Source: Endozoicomonas sp. G2_2
GTDB lineage: Bacteria > Pseudomonadota > Gammaproteobacteria > Nevskiales > Salinisphaeraceae
Direction: 5' to 3'
Assembly: GCF_017744135.1 (NCBI RefSeq)
Contig: NZ_JAGHQU010000004.1
Coordinates: forward strand, 248,001-312,000
Length of the DNA stretch: 64,000 bases
Shown one piece after another: positions 46,285 to 64,000 of this stretch. How positions within the stretch are numbered: the stretch's first letter is position 1; each line of letters starts with the position of its first letter. The notes under the pieces are model-generated. The model ran no database searches, was not told where the DNA came from, and saw nothing but the letters and a program-made list of their open reading frames with translations. Both the position numbers and the translations under genes were made by a program.

Positions 46285-46359
46285 TGGGGCGTAGCCAAGT
46301 GGTAAGGCATCGGGTTTTGATCCCGTGTACCGCAGGTTCGAATCCTGCCGCCCCAGCCA
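46285..46359 (+). tRNA. tRNA-Gln (TTG)
   Basis: 75 nt including the encoded CCA. A 7-bp acceptor (TGGGGCG / CGCCCCA), discriminator G, anticodon TTG at 46317-46319, and T-arm GCAGG-TTCGAAT-CCTGC are present. The base of the anticodon stem has a U-U mismatch. Located upstream of prs as in other gammaproteobacteria. Confidence 0.93.
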
Positions 46360-46524
46360 TAGTTGGATGTCCGCTAGGCGGACACGAAAACAGCCGGGGG
46401 CGGCTGGAAGAGAACCTGCAGGTTCGACGCCGCGCGCGAAGCGCGCAAGAATCGTGACGCGCAGCGGCACGAGCCCGCAGGGTGAGGCATCGTAAGATGC
46501 CGAGTCATTCTGCCGCCCCAGCCA
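46360..46524 (+). repeat. tRNA-tail-associated hairpin element at tRNA-Gln
   Basis: 165 bp between the tRNA-Gln 3' end and the end of a second copy of its tail (46506-46524, 17/19 identical to 46341-46359, last 15 nt exact). It contains hairpins GTCCGC-TAG-GCGGAC and AGCCG-GGGG-CGGCT and the palindrome GAACCTGCAGGTTC. The shared module runs 46423-46505: TTCGAC, stem GCGCGC-GAA-GCGCGC, GAATCGTG, CACGAGCCCGCAGGGTGAG, stem GGCATC-GTAA-GATGCC, CGAGT. No open frame is credible. Confidence 0.75.
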
Positions 46525-63150: not shown

Positions 63151-63336
63151 GTGCTCGTGTTCGAGCGCCGCGCGGGCGAAGCGCTGCAGCTGGGCGACGA
63201 GGTCGAGGTGCGCGTGCTCGATACCGATGGGCAGACGGTGCGCATCGGGGTCGAGGCGCCGCGCGACGTGCGTATACAGGCTGTGGATGCGGCGCCCGCC
63301 GAAGAGGATCCGGACACCGGGGCAAATCAAAAGTAG
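63151..63336 (+). CDS. csrA: Divergent CsrA-like translational regulator
   Basis: A 61-residue homologue of the post-transcriptional regulator CsrA in the conserved alaS-lysC-csrA-tRNA-Ser-tRNA-Arg locus. The beta-strand scaffold is clear: MLVFERRAGEALQLGDEVEV, then the QTVRIGVEAP turn. Relative to E. coli CsrA, position 4 is Phe not Leu, 5 is Glu not Thr, and 44 is Ala not Arg. Leu4 and Arg44 are key RNA contacts in the E. coli protein. The tail is acidic. GTG start with a weak Shine-Dalgarno. Reduced or altered RNA binding is inferred. Confidence 0.85.
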   Translation: MLVFERRAGEALQLGDEVEVRVLDTDGQTVRIGVEAPRDVRIQAVDAAPAEEDPDTGANQK

Positions 63337-63607: not shown

Positions 63608-63684
63608 GGGCCCGTAGCTCAGTTGGATAGAGCGTGCGGCTACGAACCGCAAGGTCGGGAGTTCGAATCTTCCCGGGCCCGCCA
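63608..63684 (+). tRNA. tRNA-Arg (ACG)
   Basis: 77 nt with encoded CCA. Acceptor GGGCCCG / CGGGCCC, anticodon ACG at 63642-63644 in loop CTACGAA, and T-loop TTCGAAT are present. Its last 19 nt (63666-63684) begin the downstream tandem repeat. Confidence 0.95.
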
Positions 63685-63841
63685 TAGCAGAGAGGCTCTC
63701 CAAACACGGAGAGCCTTTTTTGTATCTGACGACACAATTCGAACTCCCGACAAATAAACAAGTTGTTCGACAGCCGCGCAGCGGCTGAATCGTGCAGCGC
63801 GAGCTGCACGAGCCCGAAGGGCGAGCGGCGCAGCCGCGAGT
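63666..63841 (+). repeat. 176-bp tRNA-tail repeat, unit 1
   Basis: Begins at the third-last position of the tRNA-Arg T-loop with the 19-nt tail AATCTTCCCGGGCCCGCCA. A terminator hairpin follows, then an inverted T-arm copy (63737-63751). The shared module (63766-63841) is TTCGAC, AGCCGC-GCA-GCGGCT, GAATCGTG, CAG-loop-CTG stem, CACGAGCCCGAAGGGCGAG, CGGC-GCA-GCCG, CGAGT. Confidence 0.88.
63694..63722 (+). terminator. Terminator in repeat unit 1
   Basis: Stem GGCTCTCC / GGAGAGCC with loop AAACAC and T6, 10 bp after tRNA-Arg. It probably ends the tRNA transcript. Confidence 0.9.
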
Positions 63842-64000
63842 AATCTTCCCGGGCCCGCCATAGCAGAGAGGCTCTCCAAACACGGAGAGCCTTTTTTGTA
63901 TCTGACGACACAATTCGAACTCCCGACAAATAAACAAGTTGTTCGACAGCCGCGCAGCGGCTGAATCGTGCAGCGCGAGCTGCACGAGCCCGAAGGGCGA
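63842..64000 (+). repeat. 176-bp tRNA-tail repeat, unit 2 (cut by window edge)
   Basis: Identical, by direct reading, to unit 1 over the visible 159 bp, starting with the second 19-nt tRNA-Arg tail. It is preceded by CGAGT as in the tRNA-Gln element. The remaining 17 bp and any further units lie outside the window. Confidence 0.87.
63870..63898 (+). terminator. Terminator in repeat unit 2
   Basis: Exact copy of the hairpin and T run at 63694-63722, shifted by 176 bp. Confidence 0.85.

Follow-up and report, generated by a model that had tools for sequence, protein, structure and literature searches.

What are the two related modules that follow tRNA-Gln and tRNA-Arg in this DNA, each running out into a copy of the 3′ end of the tRNA before it? 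As a preliminary description had claimed, one such module was present behind each of the two genes in the window (the whole stretch analysed, 64,000 nucleotides), with the tRNA of its unit directly before it and its own start 63 nt (Gln) or 81 nt (Arg) past the tRNA end (Table 1). Global alignment of the Gln copy (46423–46505) with the Arg copy (63766–63841) scored 89.5, whereas 1000 letter shuffles of one of them averaged 38.1 and reached at most 56, and the block CACGAGCCCGNAGGGYGAG was found twice in the window at ≤3 mismatches versus 0.29 times expected. The Arg module was not the single copy it had been taken for: it was repeated in tandem with a period of 176 and an identity of 100%, in an array that reached the end of contig C28 (312068) and resumed at the start of contig C3. 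The assembly break falls inside this array (window 63666–64000/contig C3 start). The antisense copy in the Gln unit had 8 nt (GGGGCGGC) as its longest exact antisense stretch, and the tRNA-Arg stretch copied in antisense (63654–63668) comprised the variable loop end, the T-stem 5′ strand and the T-loop. The broken tRNA-Gln copy that precedes the intact gene had an extra stretch in its anticodon region.

Table 1. Features of the two tRNA-linked units and of a neighbouring reading frame (window positions; R1 is the covariance model described in the text)
Feature	Position	Strand	Evidence
Broken tRNA-Gln copy upstream; inverted T-arm copy interrupts T-loop	46167..46262	+	repeats D1 (direct), I1 (inverted); sequence
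tRNA-Gln(TTG), host gene	46285..46359	+	ARAGORN and Rfam
Imperfect antisense copy (GGGGGCGGCTGGAAGAGAACCTGC) of T-arm/acceptor 3′ half of host tRNA	46396..46419	+	sequence reading
TLR module (C..CGAGTC) between GGTTCGA and ATTC	46428..46506	+	R1 match C28:294422-294507, 73.7 bits
tRNA-Gln 3′ tail copy	46507..46524	+	17/19 over 46506-46524
CsrA-like ORF (61 aa), C-terminal RNA-binding part diverged	63151..63336	+	PF02599 57.8 bits, profile 1-42 of 53
tRNA-Arg(ACG), host gene	63608..63684	+	ARAGORN and Rfam
Terminator-like hairpin 3′ of CCA end	63684..63725	+	inverted repeat I4, 78% complementary
15-nt exact antisense of host tRNA-Arg 63654-63668	63737..63751	+	inverted repeat I2; 14/14 core pairs
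TLR module (C..CGAGTA) between GTTCGA and ATCTT	63771..63842	+	R1 match C28:311765-311843, 85.9 bits
tRNA-Arg 3′ tail copy	63843..63860	+	19/19 over 63842-63860
Second tandem Arg unit, clipped by window end, on to contig end 312068	63842..64000	+	

Covariation supported a conserved structure for hairpins A, B and C of the module, as had been proposed for A and C: in 79 distinct copies 93.6% of cells paired, versus 26–43% with the partners slid by 1–3 columns, in an alignment that had been fitted to the covariance model and so favours pairing. Changes on both sides were seen in 23 of the 31 pairs of the three hairpins.

A covariance model (R1) was made from nine copies, all of this genome, and returned 18 matches in it at E ≤ 0.1. 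They were found at Arg-ACG (with its continuation on C3), Arg-TCT, Arg-CCG, Arg-CCT, a broken Arg-CCT copy, Gln-TTG, Gln-CTG and Tyr, so that this genome-wide scan, which had been put forward as a check on the association with tRNA genes, placed all matches in arrays behind a tRNA or in their remnants or continuation; the exceptions to an intact tRNA in front were two matches behind the broken tRNA-Arg copy (C4, near 68 kb) and the three on C3 that continue the Arg-ACG array. R1 also found 4/4 of the tyrT/tyrV repeats of E. coli K-12 (42–47 bits) and, at E ≤ 0.001, detected the family in 29 of 61 genomes (this genome included), among them 14/14 of its own genus, Salinisphaera.

The window repeats belong to the known family of tRNA-linked repeats (TLR/rtT, Rfam RF00391 RtT); the idea of a new repeat family therefore had to be given up. 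RF00391 matched a Tyr unit of another Salinisphaera genome over its full length at 75.4 bits (cut-off 45). In this genome it gave 11 matches at E ≤ 1 and none above the cut-off, the best (43.6 bits) lying slightly below it, unlike the E. coli rtT family; the window units scored 31.1 bits (Gln) and 22.8 bits (Arg), both under the gathering score of 45, which is a curated threshold and not a biological feature. Rfam at the gathering threshold, run on the window alone, gave four tRNAs and no RtT, and the family surfaced with a relaxed threshold or in relatives.

In the accessible part of PMC8144298, the name tRNA-linked repeats is used for 22 genes at ten loci in E. coli. Such repeats were first described in 1978, and their function was still given as none known in that paper of 2021. 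Their hallmark, an exact 18–19 bp repeat of the 3′ end of the preceding tRNA or rRNA, is shared together with a structured module by the E. coli TLRs, including RrA, RrB and RrF (PMC8144298, same part). The 19-nt local tRNA tail that the preliminary description saw after both modules was exact at Arg (19/19, identical to tRNA-Arg(ACG)); the Gln tail matched at 17/19, and is therefore a near rather than an exact fit to the hallmark. The rtT (RttR) repeats of E. coli tyrT–tyrV resembled the window repeats in period (178 vs 176 here), in a host tail of 19 nt and in layout, with an antisense T-arm before the module, hairpin A, hairpin B, GGCCCGAAGGGYGAG, hairpin C and CGARTAATCC. They differed in place, the repeats of this genome being at Arg, Gln and Tyr tRNAs, and in the antisense arm, which in the Arg units here is complementary to the T-loop 5′ side and in E. 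coli rtT to the tail. REP/BIME are, like TLRs, short, palindromic, intergenic repeats, and rtT-like attenuators were assigned to BIMEs in one paper (PMC2965389, in the part available); TLRs are unlike them in being mostly bound to structural-RNA genes, in their host-specific tails and in a module of several hairpins.

Host specificity was scored on 94 loci (90, five of them from this genome, plus four further loci of its own), of which 73 (120 units) had a tRNA called ≤130 nt upstream; two units were dropped at contig ends, leaving 118. The tails matched their own tRNA at a mean of 14.5/17 positions versus 9.2 for tRNAs of other amino acids, and the own tail was the best match in 97 of the 118 units and tied in 3. 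This comparison of tails with the adjacent tRNA upheld a small structured non-coding repeat family linked to tRNA genes with host-specific tails. Chance was also considered as a source of the tail match, and was ruled out by the other-amino-acid controls. For the antisense arm, the longest match to the own tRNA averaged 11.9 nt versus 7.5 nt, with the own tRNA best in 75 units and tied in 26. In Arg units and in some Ser and Thr units, the antisense covered ~14 nt (variable loop end, T-stem 5′ strand and T-loop) and tracked the base changes of the host tRNA between species; departures from pairing were too few for a test of G-U bias in this arm. As read from the sequence, Gln and Tyr units, and likewise those at E. 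coli tRNA-Tyr, had an arm antisense to the tail, in which the motif GATGAGAACC was frequent; the arm of the E. coli copy behind tRNA-Lys was antisense to the T-loop 5′ side, like that of the Arg units here. In predicted folds of one Tyr unit (L113) and two E. coli units, the tail antisense would close off the module by pairing in an acceptor/T-stem-like helix that ends in CCA; for Gln such a closed fold is a reading of the letters, the fold of the window Gln unit having omitted part of the antisense arm. In multi-unit arrays, the last units had poorer tails than earlier ones (12.6 vs 16.0) and poorer modules (59.8 vs 71.2 bits), and their antisense had decayed less (11.7 vs 13.1 nt).

The units held a ~80-nt module with conserved hairpins, GTTCGA on its left and the local tRNA 3′ tail on its right. 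The module had GA before and A after it, and so occupied a loop position (T-loop TTCGA^AT) in a partial copy of the neighbouring tRNA. At some loci the whole tRNA body was seen to the left, and the T-loop split by an insertion, as first suspected, was borne out by modules within copies of otherwise recognisable tRNA bodies. We take the place of the module to be T-loop positions 58/59 in tRNA numbering; the “host tail” is therefore the remainder of a partial tRNA copy. The T-loop TTCGAAT was carried by 64 of 73 host tRNAs, and in this genome by 6/7 hosts versus 17/44 tRNAs (p 0.009).

Some modules were on the strand opposite to the tRNA copy, or in other loops, with GA^A as a recurrent junction. 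Sorted by a simple pattern in their flanks, 68 copies comprised 12 in a sense T-loop, 14 in an antisense T-loop and 42 in neither; among the latter were copies in tRNA-Ser anticodon or D-loops (L196, L338, L324; in L196 the module is inside the anticodon loop of a tRNA-Ser copy), in antisense tRNA-Met copies (L127) and with no visible tRNA. The 5S-linked copies of E. coli E69 had AGGA before and AACTGCC after the module, the latter presumably being the 5S 3′ end. A further model (R3), made from copies that seemed unlinked to tRNA, gave 15–21 matches per genome in G018, G020, G023, G027 and G368 and nine in G404. Forty R3 loci, chosen non-randomly among hits not previously taken, were examined, and 24 of them had a tRNA within 250 nt (eight downstream on the same strand, ten downstream on the opposite strand and six otherwise); no tRNA was called within 250 nt of the other 16, some of which still had a tRNA-like tail (L341). 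Some of the modules that lack a nearby tRNA (L326, L329, L335–L337, L339, L340, L344) have recurring flanks of their own, and two loci of G368 (L339, L345) contain module pairs, inverted, ~15 nt apart.

With the module deleted, 10 of 321 alignment rows (seven loci; some copies occur in two alignments) gave an ARAGORN tRNA that spanned the join, versus 2 of 642 shifted controls; the tRNA-Pro of L321, one of the ten, was called without the join too. Most units hold the tRNA 3′ part only, and we therefore infer the insertion from the junction and not from an empty site. At the Tyr-Gly-Thr cluster, the spacers of the nearest empty loci were too diverged to align, and the Tyr-Gly spacer was down to 13–40 nt in some relatives. 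In three genomes of one genus (L130, L139, L142), a type I restriction specificity (hsdS-like) frame opens with a TLR-like module, which supplies its first ~25 codons; Pfam Methylase_S was confirmed for L142 only.

The family spans much of the Gammaproteobacteria. A model from 84 copies (R2) detected it, at E ≤ 1e-5, in 118 of 369 genomes of the class and gave 11 matches in E. coli E69, some of them 5S-linked. In a scan of named genomes, the matches listed included Enterobacterales, Alteromonas, Rheinheimera, Thioalkalivibrio, Rhodanobacteraceae, Lysobacteraceae and Marinobacter, and also a Zetaproteobacteria MAG and one MAG labelled Rhodospirillales. Sixty-seven class-wide loci were taken (the search itself supplied 27, and 40 were chosen going down its list, some being skipped), of which 49 had a tRNA ≤150 nt upstream (Gln 19, Ser 11, Arg 9, Glu 3, Tyr 2, Pro 2, Thr 2, Val 1), six started too close to a contig end and 12 were neither. 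Six of these 12 (Gln in L171 and L175, Arg-CCG in L201, Arg-CCT in L213, Ser in L205 and L196) had the module within a tRNA body that was closely followed by an intact copy.

Of 66 Salinisphaera loci, 46 had their closest module at the same tRNA of another genome, 14 at another tRNA of another genome, four at the same tRNA of the same genome and two at another tRNA of the same genome, these two being one reciprocal pair (L092/L093, two Arg tRNAs, 94%). Of 160 matches 156 had been carried forward, the four weakest being left out, and this comparison used the best copy per locus among the 150 aligned. The modules thus follow tRNA loci vertically, so that the recent mobility raised in the preliminary description is unsupported, and by the same counts the arrays are mostly resident.

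After folding, the share of modules with GGA in a hairpin loop at least twice was 78% for the R3 set, 44% for the class set and 7% for the relatives set, which is mostly Salinisphaera, compared with 11%, 5.5% and 2%, respectively, when the unpaired letters were shuffled; alignment A6 overstates GGA, because R3 was built from mostly GGA-type copies. In a fairer count restricted to R1 and R2, loops contained GGA in 57% of 124 non-Salinisphaera copies, in 7% of 102 Salinisphaera copies and in 2% on the opposite strand. The GGA richness of module loops outside Salinisphaera is strand-specific. Modules lay opposite to the tRNA strand in 12/40 R3 loci, where the GGA strand is therefore not made with the tRNA transcript. 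By genome, in counts that include the R3 set and so favour GGA, two GGA loops were present in 97/182 copies and at least one in 130/182 from genomes with canonical CsrA. Salinisphaera copies had two in 0/102 and at least one in 7/102, and thus lacked the GGA loops of a CsrA-binding sponge RNA; in a genome of the family whose CsrA match was weak, two were present in 0/1. Four other genomes without a CsrA match (three <90% complete) had two in 2/5 copies and at least one in 4/5, and three of the four carry GGA copies, which counts against an association of GGA with CsrA. The E. coli tyrT/tyrV units had a GGA loop in 0/4 despite CsrA. The loss of GGA is confined to one clade, and was therefore perhaps one event.

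Of the 14 Salinisphaera genomes, seven had no match to PF02599 (two of these are <90% complete); matches in the other seven scored 20–52 bits, one of them below the cut-off, and ended at profile position 36–42 of 53. The CsrA-like frame of the window has Ala at the position of Arg44 in E. coli CsrA (alignment by eye, to what we take to be the E. coli sequence). In E. coli, R44A rendered CsrA defective in RNA binding and regulation (PMC7652899, in the part available). Salinisphaera CsrA looks non-functional or missing, as judged from these profile matches. The window frame lies directly upstream of tRNA-Ser/tRNA-Arg.

The 5S-linked RrB of E. coli binds CsrA via GGA motifs, of which Salinisphaera modules have almost none in loops, and the 19 tRNA-linked TLRs of E. 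coli were predicted not to bind it (PMC8144298, accessible part). Many modules outside Salinisphaera resemble CsrA sponges of the CsrB/RsmZ type in having GGA in hairpin loops, and differ from them in having about two such loops each rather than many and in lying inside tRNA/rRNA units; the window modules are without loops of this type. From this likeness we infer that GGA-type modules may bind CsrA. Tentatively, TLR modules could be widespread loop-inserted CsrA-binding RNAs, in which ~80-nt modules, placed at GA^A within the loops of gene copies for tRNA and 5S, would carry paired GGA hairpins and let tRNA/rRNA gene output titrate CsrA. Salinisphaera would then be a natural knock-out, its CsrA apparently diverged (Arg44 gone in this genome) or not found, its modules devoid of GGA loops and the stems and tRNA tails kept.

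It is probable, on the sequence comparisons above, that TLR modules were inserted at loops of partial structural-RNA gene copies and are transcribed and processed with the tRNA, often bearing GGA. They would have entered GA^A sites in T-loops, anticodon loops, D-loops and the 5S 3′ end, an insertion that may have been tolerated because an intact gene copy remains alongside, and tandem duplication would amplify the units. Putative co-transcription with the tRNA and the tRNA-like 3′ end would permit release as a small RNA by the tRNA/5S processing machinery, with GGA hairpin loops typical of CsrA-binding RNAs in many Gammaproteobacteria and without them in Salinisphaera. Counted against this were the low recovery of tRNAs at the joins (10/321), the 16/40 R3 loci without a called tRNA and the three copies that begin hsdS-like reading frames. 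The direct copies of tRNA 3′ ends that flank the units, the presence of modules at many different tRNAs and in both orientations, and the near-identical pair L092/L093 at two Arg tRNAs of one genome would also fit an integrative mobile element, inserted at tRNA 3′ ends by a tyrosine recombinase acting in trans, with the tails as attachment-site duplications. This is highly improbable, since the nearest relative was so rarely at another tRNA of the same genome (2/66 vs 46/66 at the same tRNA of another genome), anticodon- and D-loop insertions are unexpected from a 3′-end attachment site, and a unit of ~176 nt has little space for a recombinase gene. A non-autonomous element of IS200/IS605 or REP type, mobilised by a Y1 transposase and inserting after a short target without target duplication, would explain GA/A junctions in loops in either orientation and the 15–21 R3 matches per genome in five genomes, and has little probability in our view. 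A Y1 transposase match, the co-occurring partner that had been suggested, was indeed present in 16 of 18 repeat-bearing genomes versus 6 of the 12 genomes that lacked an R1 match (p 0.03, for genome groups chosen after the fact), but the repeat-rich G023 and G027 had none. As a necessary partner the Y1 transposase was rejected, the match being absent in 2/18 repeat-bearing genomes.

A cis-acting switch of the pre-tRNA, in which a read-through transcript would refold, with the unit taking the place of the tRNA 3′ half as pairing partner of the 5′ half and with maturation blocked, is unlikely. The antisense T-arm and the second tail would enable such refolding, and minimum-energy folds of tRNA plus first unit were of this form in 3/3 (Arg-CCG, Arg-ACG, Gln), the predicted partner of the T-arm being the antisense stretch and that of the acceptor 5′ strand the second tail. 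The tracking of host base changes by the 14-nt antisense is in its favour, as is the exact antisense of several last units with decayed module and tail (L008, L082, L117). However, the antisense is also kept in units far along arrays, it pairs with the unit's own tail in the Tyr unit and two E. coli units folded above, the scarcity of departures from pairing left the G-U test without power, and local copying from the tRNA predicts the same antisense match.

This comparison gives TLRs a common anatomy, namely a module at the loop of a partial structural-RNA gene copy plus a host-specific antisense arm. It also makes their function directly testable, as module GGA loops against CsrA state; if the CsrA reading is true, many bacteria would have CsrA linked to the growth-rate control of tRNA/rRNA transcription. 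The open-licence literature, in its accessible parts, made no mention of T-loop insertion, of the antisense arm or of family-wide GGA loops in TLRs. The window feature is real and well conserved, and the family-level anatomy and the association of GGA with CsrA exceed that literature, as far as its accessible parts go. In another genus of the family (G015, L233), a different tandem repeat of roughly 68 nt lies behind tRNA-Tyr.
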